NCBI GenBank assembly: GCA_947302675.1
Contig: CAMYWI010000016.1
Location: 1 to 10,705 of the forward strand
Direction: 5' to 3'
DNA length: 10,705 bases
Source of the DNA: an uncultured Selenomonadales bacterium
Lineage (GTDB): Bacteria > Bacillota_C > Negativicutes > Selenomonadales > Selenomonadaceae
Positions 2,495 to 10,705 of the stretch are shown here, one piece after another. The notes below the pieces were generated by a model, which saw only the letters and a list, made by a program, of their open reading frames with translations, had not been told where the DNA came from and ran no database searches. The position numbers and the translations under genes are program-made. How positions within the stretch are numbered: position 1 is the stretch's first letter; every line of letters starts with the position of its first letter.

Positions 2495-3973
2495 TTGATA
2501 AAAAAACTTAGCGAACTTGCGTTGCTTATCCCCGACGCCGAACTTATAGGCGGCGACGTTGAAATTGGCGGGATTGAGCACGACTCGCGCAAGGTCACGG
2601 CGAAAGATTTATTCGTGTGCATGGAAGGTGCGCACGTTGACGGACATAATTTTATTCCGCAAGCAATTTCAAAGGGCGCAGTCGCTCTCTTGACGACGAG
2701 GAAAAATTTCAAGCCGCCCGAAAATATTTCCGCGCTGATTGTCCCCGACATGCTTAACGCGCTGGCGGTTATCGTCCCGTATTTTTATGATTATCCTGCG
2801 CGGGCAATGCGCGTTATCGGCGTGACGGGTACCAACGGCAAGACAACGACGACTTATCTTCTGCGAGAAATTTTTTCCTACGCGGGTTTCAAGGTCGGCT
2901 TGATTGGCACGATTCAGATTCTTATCGGCGACGAGACTTTTCCGAATCCGAACACGACGCCCAACGTCATTGACTTGCAAAAAATTTTGGTCAACATGCG
3001 CGATAAAAATATTCAAGTCGTCGTCATGGAAGTTTCTAGCCACGCGCTGGCGGAAAATCGCGTTGCGGGCATTGAGTTTGACACGGCGATTTTCACAAAC
3101 CTCACGCAAGATCACTTGGACTTTCACGGGACAATGGAAAATTATTTGCGAGCGAAGACGAAACTTTTTGATATGGTGTCGCGGCGCGGGCGCAAGCAAA
3201 ATAAAACCGCCGTCATAAATATTGACGACGCGGCAAGCTCCGAAGTCCTCAAGCATTGTCTCTGCAAAAAAATTTCTTACGGCATAAAAAATCCCGCCGA
3301 CTTGCAAGCAACCGAGCTTGAAATAAAATCAAGCGGCATGAACTTTAAGATTGGCGACGAGATGAATTTGGATTTGCATTTAACCGGCTTGTTTAATGTC
3401 TACAACGTGCTTGCGGCAGTGTGCGCGGCGACAGCTGAAAATATTCGTCCCGACGTTATCAAACGCGCTTTGGAGAATTTTAAAAGCGTGCCCGGACGTT
3501 TCGAGCGAGTTTTTTCCGACAAGCCCTTTGAAATTATCGTCGACTACGCGCACACGCCCGACGGTGTTAAAAATGTTCTGGAGACTGCGCGGCAAATCGT
3601 CACGGGAAAAATTATCACGGTCTTCGGCTGTGGCGGCGACCGCGACAATAAAAAGCGACCGATTATGGGCGAGATTGCCGCGAAATTCAGCGACGTTATC
3701 ATTGCGACGAGCGACAATCCGCGCAGTGAAGATCCCGAAAAAATTTTGGACGAGATCGAAGTCGGGATTGGCAAAAAGAATCACGAGCGCATTGTCGACA
3801 GACGCGCCGCGATTTTTAGGGCGATTGAGCTTGCGAAGGCGGGCGACATAGTTTTGATTTTGGGCAAAGGTCACGAGGATTATCAGATTTTAAACACGGG
3901 CAAGATTCACTTCGACGACAGAGAAGTTGCGCTGGCGGCAATTAAAAATGTTGGAGGAATTAAAAATGACTAA
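2495..3973 (+). CDS. murE: UDP-MurNAc-L-Ala-D-Glu:meso-diaminopimelate ligase
   Basis: Cytoplasmic ATP-dependent ligase that adds the third stem-peptide residue to UDP-MurNAc-dipeptide. The frame gives 492 residues from the TTG at 2495, the usual family length. Visible motifs are the N-terminal substrate domain with HDSR near 29-32, the ATP loop GTNGKTT at 112-118, SSHALAENR at 181-189, and Lys221 in RAKTKLF, the position of the carbamylated lysine in Mur ligases. In the C-terminal domain, PGRFE is at 333-337, DYAHTPD at 350-356 and DNPRSEDP at 407-414. DNPR is the motif that marks meso-diaminopimelate rather than lysine specificity. The last eight bases overlap murF (ATGACTAA), so the two are probably translationally coupled. 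The gene is first in the operon; ftsL and PBP genes, often placed upstream of murE, are not here. Confidence 0.97.
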   Translation: MIKKLSELALLIPDAELIGGDVEIGGIEHDSRKVTAKDLFVCMEGAHVDGHNFIPQAISKGAVALLTTRKNFKPPENISALIVPDMLNALAVIVPYFYDYPARAMRVIGVTGTNGKTTTTYLLREIFSYAGFKVGLIGTIQILIGDETFPNPNTTPNVIDLQKILVNMRDKNIQVVVMEVSSHALAENRVAGIEFDTAIFTNLTQDHLDFHGTMENYLRAKTKLFDMVSRRGRKQNKTAVINIDDAASSEVLKHCLCKKISYGIKNPADLQATELEIKSSGMNFKIGDEMNLDLHLTGLFNVYNVLAAVCAATAENIRPDVIKRALENFKSVPGRFERVFSDKPFEIIVDYAHTPDGVKNVLETARQIVTGKIITVFGCGGDRDNKKRPIMGEIAAKFSDVIIATSDNPRSEDPEKILDEIEVGIGKKNHERIVDRRAAIFRAIELAKAGDIVLILGKGHEDYQILNTGKIHFDDREVALAAIKNVGGIKND

Positions 3974-5324
3974 ATTATCTTTGAAGGAAGTCGCGCAGGT
4001 CACGGGCGCACAAGTAAATTCGGACGCCGAAATTTTTTTCGAGGACGTCACGACCGACAGCAGGAAAATTACAAGCGGCGTGCTTTTCGTCGCACTCAAG
4101 GGCGAACATTTTAACGGCGAAGACTTTGCGGCGGAGGCTCTCAAGAAAGGCGCGACTGCCGTCCTCGTCAGCAAGAGCTTTGATAAAAATCTCGACGGAA
4201 TTATTTTGAAAGTCGACGACACCTTGAAGGCTTACGCGCAAATCGCGGGAGCGTGGCGCAATCGTTTCAACATTCCGATTGTCGCGGTCACTGGCTCCAA
4301 CGGCAAGACAACGACTAAAGATTTAGCCGCCGCCGCGCTCAATTCGCTTGGTCACGTTCAAAAGACTTCGGGCAATTTTAATAACGAAGTCGGCGTCCCG
4401 ATGACTTTGCTCTCGCTCAACGAGAATCATAAAGCCGCCGTCGTTGAAATCGGTATGCGCGGGCTTGGACAGATTGAGGCACTCGCGCAGGTCGTCAAGC
4501 CCAATATCGGCATCGTCACCAACGTCAGCGAGGCGCACATTGAACTTTTGGGCACGATTGAAAATATCGCGCGGGCGAAGGGCGAACTCGTCACGGAAAT
4601 TCAAGACGGCGGCACGATTATTCTTAACGCCGACAATGTTCACACGCTGGCTATGAAAAATCTCGTCAAGGGCGGCGTGAAGGTTTTGACTTACTCGATT
4701 GAGAGCGGCGCGGATTTTGTCGCGCAGGATATTTTAATCGGGAGCGTCTCGACGGAGTTCACTTTGAGTTTTCGCGGCAAGGAGTACGACTTTGAAATTC
4801 CGATGCTCGGTCGCCACAACGTTTCCAACGCGCTGGCGGCTATCGCGGCGGGCTATGCTTGCGGCTTGAAAGTTCCCGACGTTCAGCGCGGCTTTTCAAC
4901 TTTGACCACGACGAAAATGCGCTACGAGGTGATTCGCCGCGACGGCTTGACGATTATCAACGACGCTTACAACGCAAGCCCCGCCTCAATGCGTGCGGCA
5001 ATTCGCACAACTTCCGAAGTTTACAACGGACGGCTTATCGCGGTTTTGGGCGACATGCTGGAGCTTGGAACCATTTCCGAACAAATTCACCGCGAAATTG
5101 GCTTTGAACTCGTTGAGAATAAGTTCGACACGCTGATAACTCTCGGACCGCTCGGAAGATTTATCGCGGAGGGTGCTCGCGAAGCCGGCTTGAAAAATAT
5201 TTTTGCCTTCGACACCCACGAGGCCGCCGCGAGAAAAATTTTGGATATTGTTCGCGACGGCGACACGATTTTATTCAAGGCGTCGCACGTCATGCACATG
5301 GAAAAAATTATTGAGCTGATTTAA
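3966..5324 (+). CDS. murF: UDP-MurNAc-tripeptide:D-alanyl-D-alanine ligase
   Basis: Cytoplasmic Mur ligase that adds the D-Ala-D-Ala dipeptide to complete UDP-MurNAc-pentapeptide. It has 452 residues from the ATG at 3966, which is preceded by GGAGG with an 8-base gap. An upstream in-frame TTG at 3927 lacks a site and would lengthen the overlap with murE. Motifs are TTDSR at 29-33, the ATP loop GSNGKTTTK at 110-118, TSGNFNNEVGVP at 134-145, EIGMRGLGQIE at 161-171, LGRHNVSNALAA at 291-302 and INDAYNASPASM at 331-342. The C-terminal stretch reads KASHVMHME where many MurF proteins carry KGSR followed by M and E; this is a variation, not a break. The stop is followed without a gap by the ATG of the broken hicA gene rather than by mraY. 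Confidence 0.96.
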   Translation: MTKLSLKEVAQVTGAQVNSDAEIFFEDVTTDSRKITSGVLFVALKGEHFNGEDFAAEALKKGATAVLVSKSFDKNLDGIILKVDDTLKAYAQIAGAWRNRFNIPIVAVTGSNGKTTTKDLAAAALNSLGHVQKTSGNFNNEVGVPMTLLSLNENHKAAVVEIGMRGLGQIEALAQVVKPNIGIVTNVSEAHIELLGTIENIARAKGELVTEIQDGGTIILNADNVHTLAMKNLVKGGVKVLTYSIESGADFVAQDILIGSVSTEFTLSFRGKEYDFEIPMLGRHNVSNALAAIAAGYACGLKVPDVQRGFSTLTTTKMRYEVIRRDGLTIINDAYNASPASMRAAIRTTSEVYNGRLIAVLGDMLELGTISEQIHREIGFELVENKFDTLITLGPLGRFIAEGAREAGLKNIFAFDTHEAAARKILDIVRDGDTILFKASHVMHMEKIIELI

Positions 5325-5558
5325 ATGAGCAAACTCGAAAAACTTCTTCAACGAATCAAAAACAATCCCTAGTCCGTCCGCTTTGAGGAGCTGGATAAAA
5401 TTCTGTTGAACGCGGGTTATGATCGCTCTCAACCGCGCGGCGGCTCAAGTCATTACACTTACAGAAAAGAATCAAAAGAACCGATAACCATTCCGCATCA
5501 CAAGCCCTATGTTCGTGAAATTTATGTTCAAATCGTCATTCGCGCTTTGGATTTGTAA
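5325..5558 (+). pseudogene. hicA: HicA-family toxin interrupted by an amber codon
   Basis: Starting at the ATG directly after the murF stop, the frame reads 15 codons (MSKLEKLLQRIKNNP), then TAG at 5370-5372. It stays open for another 61 sense codons to TAA at 5556-5558. Across the TAG the product is a normal small HicA of 77 positions: an N-terminal helix, FEELDKILLNAGY, GGSSHYTYR with the catalytic-type histidine at position 43, then ITIPHHKP and a C-terminal helix. HicA toxins are double-stranded-RNA-binding-fold mRNA interferases. Family members usually have a lysine near the stop position (NNPK), so a single AAG to TAG change is the simplest explanation; that is inference. No good internal start with a ribosome binding site is seen after the TAG, and the initial ATG itself lacks a strong site. 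Readthrough, suppression or a sequencing error cannot be excluded. Confidence 0.85.
5370..5372 (+). other. In-frame amber codon inside hicA
   Basis: TAG forms codon 16 of an otherwise intact 77-position HicA frame. No other complete gene in the window ends in TAG; all end in TAA or TGA. The frame on both sides is conserved, so this is a point nonsense change rather than an indel. Confidence 0.9.
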
Positions 5559-5579
5559 TTTTGACAAGGAGAAATTTTT

Positions 5580-5963
5580 ATGGAAGACAAAACGACTGCA
5601 GAAAAAGATTTAAATTATTATGCGGCATTGCCTTACGGAATTATGATAGTACCTTCGCCGGAGGGCGGTTACGTCGCGACGATTCCGGACTTGCCGGGTT
5701 GCGTAACTCAAGGCGAAACGCAATTTGAAGTTCTTAAAATGATTGAGGACGCGAAACTTTGCTGGCTGGAGGCGGCGTTAGATTTGGGTCAGTCGATTGA
5801 CGAGCCGGATTGGGACTTATACAACGGGCGATTGAATTTGCGTATTCCAAAGAGTTTGCACAGGAAACTTGCGGAGGGAGCAAAGCACGAGGGAGTAAAT
5901 CTCAATCAGCTTGCGATTTATTTAATTGCGAACGGACTTGGCGAACAGGAGAAGAATTTTTAA
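5580..5963 (+). CDS. hicB: HicB-family antitoxin
   Basis: A 127-residue protein with the two parts of a HicB antitoxin. Residues 13-75 form the degenerate RNase H-like fold that binds HicA (IMIVPSPEGGYVATIPDLPG and CVTQGET, then a helix). Residues 83-120 form a ribbon-helix-helix/Arc-type DNA-binding region (GRLNLRIPKSLHRKLAEGAK, then GVNLNQLAIYLIANGL). AAGGAG lies 8 bases before the ATG. The gene follows hicA by 21 bases, the usual toxin-then-antitoxin order, and its TAA overlaps the mraY ATG by one base. With hicA broken it may be an orphan antitoxin. It could still act as a DNA-binding repressor or neutralise HicA toxins made elsewhere. Confidence 0.9.
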   Translation: MEDKTTAEKDLNYYAALPYGIMIVPSPEGGYVATIPDLPGCVTQGETQFEVLKMIEDAKLCWLEAALDLGQSIDEPDWDLYNGRLNLRIPKSLHRKLAEGAKHEGVNLNQLAIYLIANGLGEQEKNF

Positions 5964-6916
5964 TGGAAAAAATTTTAATGGCGGGAGCGATTTCGGCGGT
6001 CGTCGTGCTGATTTTGGCTCCGATTTGCATTCCGATTTTGCACAAGTTGAAATTCGGGCAGAGCATTCGCGAGGAAGGTCCCAAAAGTCATCAAAAGAAG
6101 AGCGGCACGCCGACAATGGGCGGAATATTTTTAATCGCGGGGATTGTTGTTGCGACGCTGATTATCGCAGAGTGGAACGCGGAAATTTTCCTCGCGCTGT
6201 TTATTTTGCTCGGTCATTTTATCTTGGGGTTCATTGACGACTATATCAAAGTCGTCCGCAAACACAATCAAGGACTTTTGGCGCGTTATAAACTTTTGGG
6301 ACAAATTTTTATCGTCGTCGTTACGGTTTTTGTCGCAAGCGAACTTTTGATTGACTTCAAACCGACGATTTGGCTCCCGATTGTCGACGTGACGATTGAC
6401 GCGGGCAAACTCTATCTGCCGTTTATGCTGATAGTCATGGTTGGCGCGTCAAACGCGGTTAATCTGACGGACGGGCTTGACGGTTTGGCGTCGGGTTGCA
6501 TGGCGATTGCCGCGAGTTGTTACGCCGTGATTTGCATTTTGACGGGACACGAGGAGCTTGCGATTTTCTGCGCGGCGACGGTTGGAGCTTGCGTCGGCTT
6601 TCTGAAGTTCAACTTCCACCCCGCGAAAGTTTTTATGGGCGATACGGGTTCCCTTGCACTCGGCGGAGCGTTCGCGGCTGTCGGAATTTTGACGCACACG
6701 GAAGTTTTACTGGCGATTGTCGGCTTTGTGTTCGTCTGCGAGGCGTTGTCAGTTATCTTGCAAGTAATTTCCTTTCAGACGACGGGCAAAAGAATTTTCC
6801 GCATGAGTCCGCTACATCATCACTTCGAGCTGGGCGGTTGGTCGGAAATAAAAGTTGTCTTCGTCTTCTGGAGCGTCGGCTTAATCGCGGGCGTCGTCGG
6901 CTTATCTATGCTTTAA
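5963..6916 (+). CDS. mraY: Phospho-N-acetylmuramoyl-pentapeptide transferase
   Basis: Integral membrane enzyme that transfers phospho-MurNAc-pentapeptide to undecaprenyl phosphate, forming lipid I. The 317-residue product starts at the ATG that overlaps the hicB stop (TAATG), with AGGAG eleven bases upstream. A longer in-frame extension from 5810 would run through hicB and is not credible. Motifs are KKSGTPTMGG (45-54), the Asp pair IDDYIK (91-96), NAVNLTDGLDGLA (164-176), FMGDTGS (224-230) and SPLHHHFELGGW (282-293) with its three histidines. About ten hydrophobic helices are visible. All expected catalytic residues are present. It is coupled to hicB upstream and lies 12 bases before murD. 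Confidence 0.97.
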   Translation: MEKILMAGAISAVVVLILAPICIPILHKLKFGQSIREEGPKSHQKKSGTPTMGGIFLIAGIVVATLIIAEWNAEIFLALFILLGHFILGFIDDYIKVVRKHNQGLLARYKLLGQIFIVVVTVFVASELLIDFKPTIWLPIVDVTIDAGKLYLPFMLIVMVGASNAVNLTDGLDGLASGCMAIAASCYAVICILTGHEELAIFCAATVGACVGFLKFNFHPAKVFMGDTGSLALGGAFAAVGILTHTEVLLAIVGFVFVCEALSVILQVISFQTTGKRIFRMSPLHHHFELGGWSEIKVVFVFWSVGLIAGVVGLSML

Positions 6917-6928
6917 GGGGTCTTGGAA

Positions 6929-8269
6929 ATGGATTTGGCAGATAAAAAAGTTTTGGTCATCGGCGCGGCGCGGAGCGGCATTGCGGCGGCGAACATTGCA
7001 AAAAATCTCGGCGCGAAGGTAATTCTCAGCGACGCCAAAGAAAATCTCGACATAAAAATTTCCGGCGTGGAAGTTCGGCTCGGCAAGCAGACTGATGAAC
7101 TTCTGCGCGGCATTGACTTGATAATTGTCTCGCCCGCCGTGCCGCTGAAAATTCCTCTGCTCAAGAGCGCGGCGGCTAAAAACATTCCGATTATCAGCGA
7201 AGTCGAGCTTGCCTACGATTTGGCGAAGTCGCCGATTTGCGCGGTGACGGGCACCAACGGCAAGACTACCACCGTAACTTTGCTCGGTCTTTTGCTTAAA
7301 GAAAAGTTTGATAAAGTCGGCGTCGGCGGAAATATCGGAGTGCCTTTGAGCGAAGTTGCTTTGGAAGTCGGCGCGGGCGGTTGCCTTGCCGCTGAAATTT
7401 CAAGCTATCAAATGGAGGCGACGAAAAATTTCAAGCCGCACATTTCCGCTATTCTCAACATCACACCCGACCATTTGAAACGTCACGGTTCAATGGAAAT
7501 TTATCAAGCTATGAAGGAAAAAATCTTCGCGCAGGAGACCGCTGACGACTTTTTGATTCTGAACTACGACGACGAACACACTCGCGACATGATTAATCGC
7601 GCCGCTTGTAAAGTGCTTTACTTTAGTAGAAAAGTGAAACTTGACGCGGGCGCGTTTGTTGAAAATAATAAGCTCGTTATTAAATTCAACGGCGCAACTC
7701 ATGAACTTTGCACGATTGACGAACTCGGCATTAAAGGCGGGCACAACGTCGAGAATGCTCTTGCCGCCGCGCTGATTGCGTTTCTTTCGGGTGTCGAAGT
7801 CGAGAAAATTTCCAAAGTCCTCAAAACTTTTCAAGGCGTCGAACACAGGATTGAGTTCGTGCGCGAGATTGACGGCGTGAAATATTTCAACGACTCGAAG
7901 GCGACCAACACCGATTCCGCGATTAAAGCTCTCGAAACTTTCGACGGGCACATTATTTTGATTGCGGGCGGCGACGACAAGGGTACAGATTTAACCGACT
8001 TCCTTAATTTGGTCAATGAGCGCGTCGATTATTTGATCTTAGTTGGCGACGCGGCGGCTCGTTTCAAAGCTTGCGCTCTCGAAAAAAATTTCCCTGCCGA
8101 TAAAATTTTGGAGGCGGGCTACTCAATGGAACGGGCGGTTGCGCTTGCGAAAGAAATTGCTCGCCCGCCACAAGTCGTCTTGCTCAGTCCCGCCTGCGCG
8201 AGTTTCGACATGTATAAAGATTTTGAGGAGCGCGGCAGAGATTTCAAACGCATTGTCTTGAATCTTTAA
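6929..8269 (+). CDS. murD: UDP-MurNAc-L-alanine:D-glutamate ligase
   Basis: Cytoplasmic Mur ligase that adds D-glutamate to UDP-MurNAc-L-Ala. It has 446 residues from the ATG at 6929, with AAGGGG 8 bases upstream; the in-frame TTG at 6923 is too close to that site. The N-terminal Rossmann-like domain begins VLVIGAARSGIAAA (8-21). The ATP loop is GTNGKTT (108-114), EISSYQ is at 156-161, NITPDHLKRHGSM at 177-189, and Lys196 sits in the carbamylated-lysine position. GGHNVENALAA is at 260-270, HRIEF at 326-330, NDSKATNTDS at 341-350, and SPACASFDMYKDFEERG at 420-436. This is a complete, ordinary MurD. ftsW, which commonly follows murD, is absent; a helix-bundle gene follows instead. Confidence 0.97.
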   Translation: MDLADKKVLVIGAARSGIAAANIAKNLGAKVILSDAKENLDIKISGVEVRLGKQTDELLRGIDLIIVSPAVPLKIPLLKSAAAKNIPIISEVELAYDLAKSPICAVTGTNGKTTTVTLLGLLLKEKFDKVGVGGNIGVPLSEVALEVGAGGCLAAEISSYQMEATKNFKPHISAILNITPDHLKRHGSMEIYQAMKEKIFAQETADDFLILNYDDEHTRDMINRAACKVLYFSRKVKLDAGAFVENNKLVIKFNGATHELCTIDELGIKGGHNVENALAAALIAFLSGVEVEKISKVLKTFQGVEHRIEFVREIDGVKYFNDSKATNTDSAIKALETFDGHIILIAGGDDKGTDLTDFLNLVNERVDYLILVGDAAARFKACALEKNFPADKILEAGYSMERAVALAKEIARPPQVVLLSPACASFDMYKDFEERGRDFKRIVLNL

Positions 8270-8282
8270 GGAGGAAAATTTC

Positions 8283-8597
8283 ATGATGAATATCAAAGAA
8301 CAGACATTAAATTTGGGCGTGGCGGTTCACAAATTGGCTTTGAAGTTGCCGCCGGAAGAGGAGCGCGGACTCGCCGAGTTAATGCTTAGCAAGATAGGAG
8401 CCGTTGCCGCGAATGCAAGATTGGCAGAAGAATTGACCGACGACGAACAACAAGATTGCCGCTCTAAAGCAAAGGGAGCACTCGCCGCGCTCGAAACGTT
8501 CATTTTAATTTGCGTCAACGTCGGCTACTTCGACGAGGCGGAGGCGCAAGCGGCTTTGAACTTGTGCGCGGAAATAAATGACAAGTTGGCGCAGTGA
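8283..8597 (+). CDS. Small four-helix-bundle protein, possibly S23/IVP-like
   Basis: A 104-residue, almost all-helical protein with a strong ribosome binding site (AAGGAGG overlapping the murD stop, 8 bases before the first of two adjacent ATGs). The pattern LGVAVHKLALKLPPEEERGL, then LSKIGAVAANARLAEE, and later AKGALAALETFILICVNVGY resembles the four-helix-bundle family related to the 23S rRNA intervening-sequence protein. In that family a KLPxEE turn, an AxxxxxNxAEG-like helix and an LETxLxIxxxxGY helix recur. The match is from memory of the pattern, so the family is plausible rather than certain. No membrane segment, signal peptide or catalytic motif is visible. Its function is unknown. 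It is probably co-transcribed with the SMR gene that starts four bases after its stop. Confidence 0.6.
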   Translation: MMNIKEQTLNLGVAVHKLALKLPPEEERGLAELMLSKIGAVAANARLAEELTDDEQQDCRSKAKGALAALETFILICVNVGYFDEAEAQAALNLCAEINDKLAQ

Positions 8598-8601
8598 CGG
8601 C

Positions 8602-8925
8602 ATGGGCTATCTTTATCTGGGCGCGGCGATTATTTTTGAACTGTTCGGGACAACGTGCCTGAAGTTATCGAACGGCTTCAGTCACATGATTTATACGACA
8701 ATAACGCTGATTTGCTACGGCGCGTGTTTTTATTTCCTGTCACTGTCGCTGAAAACCGTCGCGCTGAACATTGCCTACGCGACGTGGTGCGGGCTGGGCA
8801 TTGTGCTTGCGGCGGCGGTTGCGAAAATTCTTTTCCACGAATCACTTTCGACGCCGGGACTTATCGGAATTATTTTGATTGTGGTCGGCGTCGTGCTTTG
8901 TAATTTCTTTGGAGCGAATCACTAA
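8602..8925 (+). CDS. Small multidrug resistance (SMR) family transporter
   Basis: A 107-residue membrane protein with four hydrophobic helices (about 3-21, 30-50, 57-77 and 85-104), the size and layout of EmrE-type transporters, which work as dimers in the cytoplasmic membrane and exchange protons for small cations. Glu13 in AAIIFELFGTT matches the essential proton/substrate-binding glutamate of EmrE. LKLSNGF matches the following loop, and Tyr59 and Trp62 in IAYATWCGLGIVL match the conserved Tyr and Trp of helix 3. The GTTxLKxSxGF stretch looks more like the Qac/EmrE branch than the SugE/Gdx guanidinium branch. ATG 8602 is chosen because it gives the usual N-terminus and lies just after the upstream stop. 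ATG 8578 (115 residues, 20-base overlap) is the alternative; neither has a strong ribosome site. It occupies the place where ftsW is usually found. Confidence 0.85.
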   Translation: MGYLYLGAAIIFELFGTTCLKLSNGFSHMIYTTITLICYGACFYFLSLSLKTVALNIAYATWCGLGIVLAAAVAKILFHESLSTPGLIGIILIVVGVVLCNFFGANH

Positions 8926-10020
8926 ATGAAAATAATAGTATCGGGCGGCGGCACGGGCGGGCACATTTACCCCGCGCTCACGCTCATTGACGCAATTAAA
9001 AAGAAACGCCCCGACGCGGAATTTTTATACGTTGGGACGGAAAAGGGCTTGGAGGCTGACATTGTTCCGAAGGCGGGCATAAATTTTACCGCGCTCAAGC
9101 TCGAAGGCGGCTTGGAGCGTCATTTCACACTGGAAAATATTTCTCGCGCCGCCAACGCGATTTGGAGCATCAAACACGCCGCCGACATAATTAAAAATTT
9201 CAAGCCGAGCGTGGTCGTTGGGACGGGCGGCTACGTCTGCGGACCGATTTTGCTTGCGGCAAGTATCATGAAAGTTCCGACGCTGATTCAAGAACAAAAC
9301 GCCGTCGCGGGCGTCACGAATAAAATTCTGTCGAAGTTCGTCGACAAAATTGCGGTCGGGACAAGTAACGCGCTGAAACATTTCCCCTCCGGCAAGACAG
9401 TTTACACGGGCAATCCGATTCGCGCGGAGGTTTTGTTGGCGTGGAAGGAGGACGGGCTTAAGGAGTTCGACTTCACCGAAGACAAGCCGGTTGTTTTAAT
9501 TTCGGGCGGCAGTCGCGGTGCGCGGAGCATTAACAACGCAATGATTGACGTCTTGAAAGCGGAGGCTGTCAAAAATCGGGCGCAGTTCCTTCACGTCACC
9601 GGCAAGGGCGAGTTTGAATCCGTCACGAGCGAATTGACTGACGTACTCGACGCGCCAAATATAAAAGTCGTGCCGTACCTTTACAACATGCCGCAAGCAA
9701 TGGCGATGGCGGACTTGGCAATCTTCCGCGCGGGCGCAACGGGTTTGGCGGAGCTGACGGCGCGAGGAATCCCTGCAATTTTAATCCCATATCCCTACGC
9801 GGCGGAGAATCATCAAGAATTCAACGCGCGGGCACTTGTCGAGGCGGGCGCGGCAAAAATGATACTCAACAAAGATTTGACGGCGGAAATTTTATCAGCA
9901 ACCCTCGACGAACTTCTGTTCTCGCCGGAAAAATTGGAGGCAATGTCAAAAGCAAGCTTATCGCTCGGCAAACCGCAGGCGGCGGACGAAATCGCCGATT
10001 TAATTTTGGAAATGGCTTGA
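8926..10020 (+). CDS. murG: UDP-GlcNAc:lipid I N-acetylglucosaminyltransferase
   Basis: Peripheral membrane glycosyltransferase (GT28, GT-B fold) that adds GlcNAc to lipid I to give lipid II. It has 364 residues and starts at an ATG directly after the SMR stop (TAAATG), with GGAG eleven bases upstream. Motifs are the glycine-rich loop GGGTGGHIYPA (7-17), GTEKGLEADIVPKAG (37-51), VVGTGGYVCGP (98-108), IQEQNAVAGVTNK (121-133), TGNPIR (171-176), ISGGSRGARSIN (192-203), RAGATGLAEL (268-277) with the UDP-binding glutamate, and IPYPYAAENHQEFNA (287-301). All conserved elements are intact. Its stop codon overlaps the ribosome binding site of the next gene, an antitoxin. Confidence 0.97.
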   Translation: MKIIVSGGGTGGHIYPALTLIDAIKKKRPDAEFLYVGTEKGLEADIVPKAGINFTALKLEGGLERHFTLENISRAANAIWSIKHAADIIKNFKPSVVVGTGGYVCGPILLAASIMKVPTLIQEQNAVAGVTNKILSKFVDKIAVGTSNALKHFPSGKTVYTGNPIRAEVLLAWKEDGLKEFDFTEDKPVVLISGGSRGARSINNAMIDVLKAEAVKNRAQFLHVTGKGEFESVTSELTDVLDAPNIKVVPYLYNMPQAMAMADLAIFRAGATGLAELTARGIPAILIPYPYAAENHQEFNARALVEAGAAKMILNKDLTAEILSATLDELLFSPEKLEAMSKASLSLGKPQAADEIADLILEMA

Positions 10021-10032
10021 GGAGGTTTCAAT

Positions 10033-10317
10033 ATGACAAACGAAGTTACTCTGGAAATTAAAATCGATGCCGACTTGAAAGCGGAGGCTGAAAAACTCTA
10101 CGGCAAAATCGATTTGACGCTTGAAGAGGCAATTTCGATTTTGATTAAGTACAACGTCGAGCAACAAGACGGCGAAATTCCGAACAGAAAAACGGAATCG
10201 GAACACACCGAACTTTTCGGCGCGTTGTCGAAATACGCAAACCCCGCGCTGATTCCCTTTGAAGATGGGGCTTGGGAAAGGGCTATGGTGAAAAAATATG
10301 CACAAAATCTTGGTTGA
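10033..10317 (+). CDS. RelB/DinJ-like antitoxin
   Basis: A 94-residue acidic protein with AGGAGG at 10020-10025, 7 bases before the ATG. Residues 4-40 (EVTLEIKIDADLKAEAEKLY, then GKIDLTLEEAISILIKY) fit the RelB/DinJ ribbon-helix-helix pattern: a beta strand, a helix ending in a short turn, then a second helix. The remaining half is the toxin-binding region expected of a type II antitoxin. The last 20 bases overlap the PIN-domain gene, so the pair is translationally coupled in antitoxin-then-toxin order. RelB/DinJ antitoxins usually pair with RelE/YafQ-type toxins, so the PIN partner is notable. The family assignment rests on a short pattern; another ribbon-helix-helix family is possible. Confidence 0.75.
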   Translation: MTNEVTLEIKIDADLKAEAEKLYGKIDLTLEEAISILIKYNVEQQDGEIPNRKTESEHTELFGALSKYANPALIPFEDGAWERAMVKKYAQNLG

Positions 10318-10672
10318 TACCAATATCATCCTGCGCTGCCTTTTGCGCGACAACGAAGAACAAGCTAAGCAAGCCGACAAAGTTATCAAAGACGGTGCTT
10401 GGACTCTCCCAGAGGTTTTGGCAGAAGTAGATCACGTTTTACGCACTTTTTATGACGTTGAAAGAAAAGACATCGCCGCGCAACTTTTTAAGACATTGAA
10501 TCTGATTGAAGTTGAACGCCCCGTCGTTATGCACCCTGCCGTAGAAATTTTCGCAGAAACAAAGTTGGATTTCGTCGACTGCATACTTGCGGCTTATCAT
10601 GACGTGGAAGGGGCTAATGTCTTCACCTTCGACAAGAAACTTAAAAAACAGATTGAACGGGAGGAAAAATAA
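10298..10672 (+). CDS. PIN-domain (VapC-like) ribonuclease toxin
   Basis: A 124-residue protein covering one PIN domain. The acidic residues that bind metal in this family are visible: Asp7 in ILVDTNIILR, Glu43 in PEVLAEVDHVL, Asp94 (with Asp91) in LDFVDCILAAYH, and Asp112 in VFTFDKKL. VapC-type toxins are Mg-dependent endoribonucleases that cut tRNA or rRNA and are held in check by the antitoxin encoded just upstream. The ATG lies inside the end of the antitoxin gene with only a weak ribosome site (GGTGA seven bases upstream), as expected for coupled translation with antitoxin in excess. All key residues are intact, so the toxin looks active. Confidence 0.88.
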   Translation: MHKILVDTNIILRCLLRDNEEQAKQADKVIKDGAWTLPEVLAEVDHVLRTFYDVERKDIAAQLFKTLNLIEVERPVVMHPAVEIFAETKLDFVDCILAAYHDVEGANVFTFDKKLKKQIEREEK

Positions 10673-10673
10673 T

Positions 10674-10705
10674 TTGAAACTCGACGGCTTGAAGAAATAT
10701 CATGT
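10674..10705 (+). CDS. murC: Start of a gene cut by the window edge, probably murC
   Basis: GGGAGG at 10659-10664 is followed nine bases later by TTG at 10674, which opens the frame MKLDGLKKYHV to the window end. The pattern of a short polar lead, then K-K-x-H and a hydrophobic residue, matches how MurC proteins begin just before their nucleotide-binding GIGG loop. murC also commonly follows murG in Firmicutes mur clusters. Only ten codons are visible, so the identity rests mainly on context. Confidence 0.5.
   Translation, partial: MKLDGLKKYH

Follow-up and report, generated by a model that had tools for sequence, protein, structure and literature searches.

Toxin-antitoxin pairs that lie between core genes of bacterial chromosomes occupy fixed intergenic sites, at which they are gained and lost and at which partners change; among type I restriction systems, hsdS genes exchange specificity modules and consist of conserved ends and a swapped core. 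Here we describe small genes, among them two pairs of toxin-antitoxin type, in the mur operon of an uncultured Selenomonadales bacterium (assembly GCA_947302675.1, contig CAMYWI010000016.1); the complete stretch of 10,705 nucleotides (nt) that was analysed is called the window. The gene order is murE-murF-[hicA,hicB]-mraY-murD-[four-helix-bundle,SMR]-murG-[RelB-like antitoxin,PIN]-murC, all on the plus strand from position 2495, and the intergenic distances from murF to murC are 0, 21, -1, 12, 13, 4, 0, 12, -20, and 1 nt (Table 1). Because the same genes occupy the same junctions in many relatives, this arrangement is not due to chance. We consider it likely that they are read-through cassettes at fixed mur junctions, the toxin specificity of which is exchanged by homologous recombination. 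Unlike the chromosomal pairs mentioned above, these cassettes are located within a contiguous essential operon, and toxin blocks appear to have been exchanged between sister species with closely similar mur flanks. They share with hsdS the conserved ends and the swapped specificity core; in contrast to hsdS, the unit is a toxin-antitoxin pair, and no recombinase was seen in the mur operon, a search for recombinases not having been made.

The course of events that we propose is as follows. At three fixed junctions, the mur operon of a Quinella-like genus would contain small genes that are expressed by read-through. Both hicAB and antitoxin-PIN may have entered their own junction early in the group, to be inherited and often lost thereafter, and both pairs would have diversified in place so that allelic classes arose. 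Between species, the toxin and the corresponding portion of its antitoxin would move as one block, for which homologous recombination within the conserved mur genes and the conserved cassette ends is the most likely mechanism. The SMR gene is presumably an older resident, whereas four-helix-bundle genes would have entered more than once.

Families were assigned by means of Pfam and NCBIfam models. The pair between murF and mraY resembles HicAB type II systems in its toxin-first order, in its HicA and HicB domains, and in the likeness of HicB to solved HicB structures (6hpb, 6u0i). It differs from them by its gap-free position, by its allelic classes at one site, and by the interruption of hicA in the window, where an in-frame stop codon breaks a reading frame that is uninterrupted in 14 of 14 relatives. 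The HicA domain was recognized on the piece 3' of this stop (PF07927, 27.5 bits, cut-off 27); the HicB partner downstream reached 41.4 bits with PF15919 and 40.4 bits with PF05534. Similarly, the pair between murG and murC is like a RelB/DinJ antitoxin with a VapC-like PIN toxin in that the antitoxin comes first, the two genes overlap by 20 nt, and the acidic residues are invariant; unlike such systems, it scores below the cut-offs of antitoxin and VapC models and exists in several motif-matched classes between murG and murC. The PIN domain gave 46.5 bits (PF01850), and its residues D7, E43, D94, and D112, which we take to be catalytic, are invariant in 11 sequences; the VapC family model NF047959 was not reached by the window protein (18.4 bits, cut-off 80). 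The window antitoxin stayed below both RelB cut-offs (Pfam RelB 13.5 versus 22.4; TIGR02384 RelB_DinJ 27.7 versus 45.65); among the antitoxins of relatives, that of locus L001 exceeded the Pfam cut-off (24.0), that of L002 did not (21.8), and that of L006 gave no RelB match. Judged by sequence, the PIN pair is probably an active type II toxin-antitoxin system with a putative RNase as toxin, and hicA of the window is probably inactive. Between murD and murG, the SMR domain was found (PF00893, 89.8 bits), while all 23 NCBIfam models that matched, the named Qac/EmrE models included, remained under their cut-offs (best QacCGHJ, 105.3 versus 160). The four-helix-bundle protein gave weak matches (TIGR02436, 25.0 versus cut-off 24; PF05635, 30.2 versus cut-off 33.8). 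None of the five cassette proteins, the interrupted hicA being excluded, matched a PADLOC anti-phage model at E 0.01.

The window belongs to a rumen group that includes Quinella. A MurG scan of species genomes gave 58 loci, the eight nearest of which are 83-88% identical and stem from gut and rumen Selenomonadaceae, one being Quinella sp. 1Q5. The genus-level group of the nearest genome comprises 66 genomes, and MurG was found at E 1e-40 in 63 of these. Stretches around murG were taken from 40 of the 66 and complemented with the loci of the MurG scan; junctions were read in 34 close loci plus the window, with core genes placed by tblastn (L numbers denote loci or contigs, G numbers genomes). 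The counterpart of murC in L001 encodes MurC fused to D-Ala-D-Ala ligase (MurC-Ddl, L001:11746-14064, 773 aa).

At murF-mraY, 11 of the 25 loci with both genes contain hicAB, 13 have a spacing of 11-21 nt, and L031 holds 140 nt of other sequence; further filled junctions exist on other contigs (L151, L152, L157, L159). In all 11 filled junctions hicA starts at the murF stop or at most 21 nt from it. At murG-murC (30 loci and the window), a full antitoxin-PIN pair is present in 15 of 31 cases and 12 junctions are empty; the remainder consists of a truncated PIN gene (L101), an antitoxin tail alone (L099), and other content (L079, L104). At murD-murG, 31 of 34 loci have content: SMR in 23, incomplete or interrupted in L081, L088, and L100; a four-helix-bundle gene in 11; both in four; and unlabelled sequence in L084. 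The remaining three show a 4-nt overlap of murD and murG. A YgiT-type zinc-finger-like gene also occurs at this junction in L083 (by likeness) and in L088, where a DUF4258 gene precedes it. The four-helix-bundle gene lies before SMR in the window and L002, and after SMR in L094 and L095. As the two genes occur apart and in either order, they do not constitute one cassette; the position on either side of SMR further indicates no fewer than two separate entries of four-helix-bundle genes. No relative of the window copy exceeds 41% identity, and of the 48 matches (34 genomes) 10 lie at murD-murG. Thus, of the three two-gene cassettes announced in the preliminary description of the window, gene order, common strand, and short gaps were corroborated, whereas the murD-murG pair is not a single cassette and hicA is interrupted. 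The comparison of junctions across relatives also bore out that the cassettes sit where relatives show a closed junction and that their content varies between species; the expectation that such genes would be hard to lose is contradicted by the common empty junctions and by the remnants in L099 and L101.

Outside the group, Selenomonas and Mitsuokella loci read murE-murF-mraY-murD-murG-murC without matches to cassette genes, so that the arrangement is not order-wide (in some of these loci, the MurC-Ddl match is split into two pieces). With regard to the question of whether the same cassettes occupy the same junctions throughout the order, neither extreme applies: They occur in a single genus-level group, in which their location is fixed although their presence is not. 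Part of the group has murG apart from other mur genes or beside murD only (e.g. L008-L027); no toxin gene of the hicAB or PIN kind matched in the murG stretches of these loci, their murF and murC neighbourhoods lying outside the stretches read. Presence and absence were mapped on a 44-row core tree. States were assigned by hand, for some rows on the basis of a different contig of that genome; L099 and L101 were scored as present, and L006 was excluded for hicAB. At least 9 changes are required for hicAB (28 rows), at least 10 for antitoxin-PIN (32 rows), and at least 10 for SMR (44 rows).

Where do these genes occur otherwise? Across the 66 genomes, HicB had 19 matches at E 1e-5, distributed over 18 genomes. 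Those of E 1.2e-13 or better, 15 in number, are all at murF-mraY: in 14 cases both neighbours were seen, and the remaining one (L004) adjoins mraY at a contig end; the other four are 35-45% identical. The PIN protein matched once per genome in 20 genomes; 16 of these matches are at murG-murC (G054 placed by the murC side only, G015 truncated). The four PIN matches elsewhere are 51-57% identical; one has an internal stop, and L077 lies between psd-like and pssA-like genes (named by reading). Other PIN-family genes amount to three to seven matches per genome in eight close genomes. For SMR, 23 of 25 matches of E 1e-27 or better are located within about 620 nt upstream of murG; the other two are on another contig of G015 and, with an internal stop, on the murF-mraY contig of G007. 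In this last genome the mur operon is split over two contigs (G007:C22 and G007:C46) with an SMR copy on each, due to a rearrangement or a bin artefact. Because strong matches concentrate at one junction each, hicAB and antitoxin-PIN appear to be old, often lost residents, not the result of repeated landings. Repeated use of the operon as a landing site, as proposed initially, therefore fits the four-helix-bundle genes but is not supported for these two pairs: strong HicB matches have one site and PIN has one main site, and gap-free HicAB pairs of other kinds are present in other operons of the genus.

This also bears on the rival explanation that mur junctions are hot spots into which hicAB or PIN pairs of external origin were inserted independently in each species. 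It would account for the patchy presence reflected in the change counts for both pairs, for the low identity between classes, and for four-helix-bundle genes on either side of SMR. We nevertheless judge it improbable, as a single HicB subfamily occupies a single site, no other strong HicB copy exists in the 66 genomes, and hicA starts at or close to the murF stop in the 11 filled junctions. Moreover, across classes hicA retains 82-97% identity to L097 or L151 in its first 60 nt, and a search of IMG/VR with the cassette proteins HicB and PIN gave, for the patterns used, two short 48% matches to HicB and none to PIN.

A ~125-nt insert before mraY is alike in L031:7066-7214 and L087:5305-5470; in L031, 21 nt of the mraY start are duplicated. 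Perfect inverted repeats of 13-14 nt lie between mraY and murD in L002:6346-6377 and L004:1416-1445. A shared repeat at the cassette edges had been suspected from small open reading frames of L031 and L087; the scan found no element common to the cassettes.

Both toxin-antitoxin pairs fall into allelic classes. In the HicB tree, L083, L087, L094, and L159 make up one starred (supported) group, and the window falls into a different one, also starred, with eight members; the HicA tree unites L082, L091, and L097 in a starred group. For PIN, class 3 (L002, L003, L004, L031, L087) and class 4 (L086, L076) are starred in the tree, class 1 has a support of 91/93, and class 2 comprises what remains of a larger open group. 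The window, L001, and L083 are the hicB holders of a starred 8-row core group, which was named after the trees were seen; their union in one HicB clade was rejected in the AU test (p 7e-43). On the core tree, HicAB classes change 6 times over 14 rows (minimum possible 2) and PIN classes 5 times over 17 rows (minimum 3).

Sister species differ by apparently swapped segments: The toxin segment is 52-65% identical, between mur flanks of 91-97%. L005 shares 91-97% of mur gene positions with L006 or L007 (with contig L152), whereas PIN is only 77-79% identical; for L005 and L007, the values are 95.3% for murG, 96.7% for murC-ddl, and 77.1% for PIN. In sliding windows between L005 and its sisters, identity starts at 95-100% in the 5' half of the antitoxin gene, drops to ~70% over a short stretch of that gene and to 53-72% over the initial two thirds of PIN, and returns to 87-100% thereafter. 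The PIN block of L005 is 65.0% identical to L006 and L007, 76.1% to the window, and 75.2% to L095, while its PIN tail agrees with that of L006 by 98.2%. A 90% cluster headed by the L005 PIN protein has two member sequences and is found on eight contigs from several sources, which makes a single bad assembly less likely, although the cluster does not show the flanks. At the other junction, L151 and L097 are 90.8% identical in murF and 96.5% in mraY, but 68.0% in hicA. Their first 60 nt of hicA agree by 93.3% and the hicA body by only 51.9%; in this body, L097 matches L091 (92.6%) and L151 matches L084 (85.5%).

The antitoxin motif, assigned by eye after classing, agrees with the PIN class in 17 of 17 loci: HTELFGAL was found in five, SAFGAL or SAYGAL in five, SAFGSL or TAFGSL in five, and TAAGML in two. 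A second antitoxin tail precedes PIN in L095, L097, L086, and L076, and is of the SAFGAL kind in the first three. It may have remained from an older allele, or serve as a short additional peptide that neutralises the toxin.

The ratio of nonsynonymous to synonymous substitution rates (dN/dS) was determined with our own NG86 script for 15 pairs, with synonymous sites near saturation in several of them. In most comparisons of intact alleles, hicA, hicB, antitoxin, and PIN gave values of 0.00-0.23; those of murG, mraY, and murD were 0.03-0.16. The part of the window hicA located 3' of the stop gave 0.08, 0.12, and 0.22, which suggests that the interruption is recent or that a shorter product is still used. 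Due to this interruption, a link between HicA and arrest of wall synthesis, as considered in the preliminary description, is unlikely in the window. The values are relevant for the view that these are ordinary chromosomal toxin-antitoxin genes which drift after one harmless insertion, their decay and diversity being caused by relaxed selection. The interrupted hicA, the truncated PIN of L101, the L099 remnant, and the many empty junctions are in line with this view; the low dN/dS of most intact alleles, the matching of motif and class in all 17 loci, and block differences between flanks of 91-97% identity argue against it, and we regard it as rather unlikely, if a little less so than acquisition at hot spots.

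The cassette genes fit tightly into the junctions. A frequent form of the empty murG-murC junction is stop-GGAGGAAAAATAAT-TTG; PIN of the window, like that of several filled loci, has its 3' end within this murC leader, whose TAA is the PIN stop. The window hicB ends with TAATG, and a Shine-Dalgarno-like sequence for mraY is placed inside the last hicB codons. These features, together with the SMR stop that abuts the murG ATG, suggest translational coupling, and we infer that the cassettes are co-transcribed and coupled with the mur genes. The promoter scan gave 14 matches on both strands versus 7.1 (standard deviation 2.9) in shuffled sequences; one match in murD ends 177 nt before the four-helix-bundle gene, and none was found in the short cassette gaps of the window, which is weak evidence. 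Terminator-like sites number 19 versus 15.3 (standard deviation 4.5) after shuffling. As to promoters and terminators of their own, which would speak against the shared expression originally postulated, no promoter-like match lies in the short gaps, and a terminator-like site does precede the antitoxin (see below). Location and gap-free coupling are also the only observations in favour of a regulatory role, in which a toxin cleaving the shared mRNA or an antitoxin repressing it would tune lipid II synthesis. With many relatives lacking cassettes and other HicAB kinds sitting in unrelated operons, we hold such a role to be very improbable.

Several findings weigh against exchange at fixed sites as the preferred reading. 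Change counts on the tree cannot separate gain from loss, and L104, sister to all others, holds neither pair; since both large branches hold both pairs, we still favour early presence followed by loss. The distribution agrees in part with the core tree, as in the case of PIN class 3, which is one clade; PIN classes 1 and 2 are without starred support, and a HicB clade of the window and L001 was not rejected (p 0.06). No close donor of the swapped PIN block was seen, the best candidate for that of L005 being 76% identical. The terminator-like site at 9980-9997 lies just upstream of the antitoxin, with the total of such sites being near the shuffled number. For the window and L086, which have different PIN classes, dN/dS was 0.50 for the antitoxin and 0.27 for PIN, and hicA of L005 and L152 gave 1.18 with very few changes. 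Finally, nearly all relatives are metagenome bins, in which mixing is possible: The G006 bin holds two murF-mraY loci, the empty L006 and L157 with hicAB, and is likely to be mixed.

The mur operon is not unique in this respect, as other HicAB kinds of the genus sit gap-free in other housekeeping operons. In 28 genomes of the group, 59 HicA-family matches were found, and loci were examined for 30. According to an automatic rule (same-strand neighbours within 40 nt on both sides), 15 of these 30 loci are embedded, compared to 1 of 26 outside the group; this control consisted of the 26 best-scoring loci in family genomes outside the group and was picked by score and unmatched, and repeated sites are not independent. 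An earlier control, the genus of G012 (Mitsuokella jalaludinii), offered three genomes with one match, and the family was used instead. The 15 gap-free loci comprise GntR-type/glmU-like (7), rfbB-like/cbiD-like (4), and murF-mraY (2) neighbours and two single sites, named by reading. Granted the caveats of the control, this group seems to have a habit of embedding HicAB in housekeeping operons. Among L119-L148, by eye, gap-free HicAB was also seen before tyrS-like genes (L124, L126) and a pfkA-like gene (L122), and hicAB lies on the opposite strand to a ubiD-like neighbour in L131-L133, L141, and L144, with a tatC-like gene on the other side in L132, L133, and L141.

Table 1. Genes of the mur operon in the window.
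Feature	Position	Strand	Remarks
murE	2495..3973	+	TTG start likely; tblastn to relatives
murF	3966..5324	+	Pfam Mur ligase domains
hicA	5325..5558	+	in-frame TAG 5370-5372 (codon 16); 3' piece PF07927, E 3.5e-6
hicB antitoxin	5580..5963	+	PF15919, PF05534; stop overlaps mraY ATG by 1 nt
mraY	5963..6916	+	PF00953, E 3.3e-36
murD	6929..8269	+	Pfam
four-helix-bundle protein, 23S rRNA IVP / TIGR02436 family	8283..8597	+	weak match
SMR transporter, Qac-like	8602..8925	+	PF00893, E 1.6e-25; stop abuts murG ATG
murG	8926..10020	+	Pfam
RelB/DinJ-like antitoxin, motif HTELFGAL (class 1)	10033..10317	+	TIGR02384, below cut-off
PIN-domain toxin, class 1	10298..10672	+	PF01850, E 6.7e-12; 20-nt overlap with antitoxin
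murC start, TTG at 10674	10674..10705	+	32 nt within window; named by likeness to L001

Divergent from murE, the window encodes on the minus strand (3-2339) an RTX-like long protein with Asn/Asp-Gly-rich repeats; a similar protein is found at the same place in L001.

No literature on Quinella with toxin-antitoxin systems was found, and among the titles and abstract beginnings listed in further searches, one of them on the mur/mraY/dcw literature, none describes the arrangement. The passages of the Quinella genome paper (PMC9585023) that were found by term do not use toxin, antitoxin, operon or recombin. What is new are the allelic toxin classes and the two close species pairs that have different toxin versions at the same spot, probably exchanged by recombination. 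With respect to function, the pairs would most likely be growth-arrest or phage-defence modules: Production of the labile antitoxin would depend on ongoing expression of the housekeeping operon, and toxin specificity would be subject to diversifying pressure. A more far-reaching, tentative proposal is that an essential operon anchors allelic, recombining toxin-antitoxin loci: mur genes might supply both expression and homology arms, the toxin might be traded between species with the antitoxin contact segment like a specificity cassette, and conflict with phages or rival pairs might drive diversifying selection, in several housekeeping operons of the same genus.

The loci described here offer natural pairs of closely related bacteria distinguished by a single toxin-antitoxin specificity at one chromosomal position, and such pairs make the co-change of toxin and antitoxin and its drivers testable. 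They further suggest that, throughout a genus-level group, essential operons can accommodate toxin-antitoxin genes without gaps and that such genes are nonetheless open to loss and swapping.

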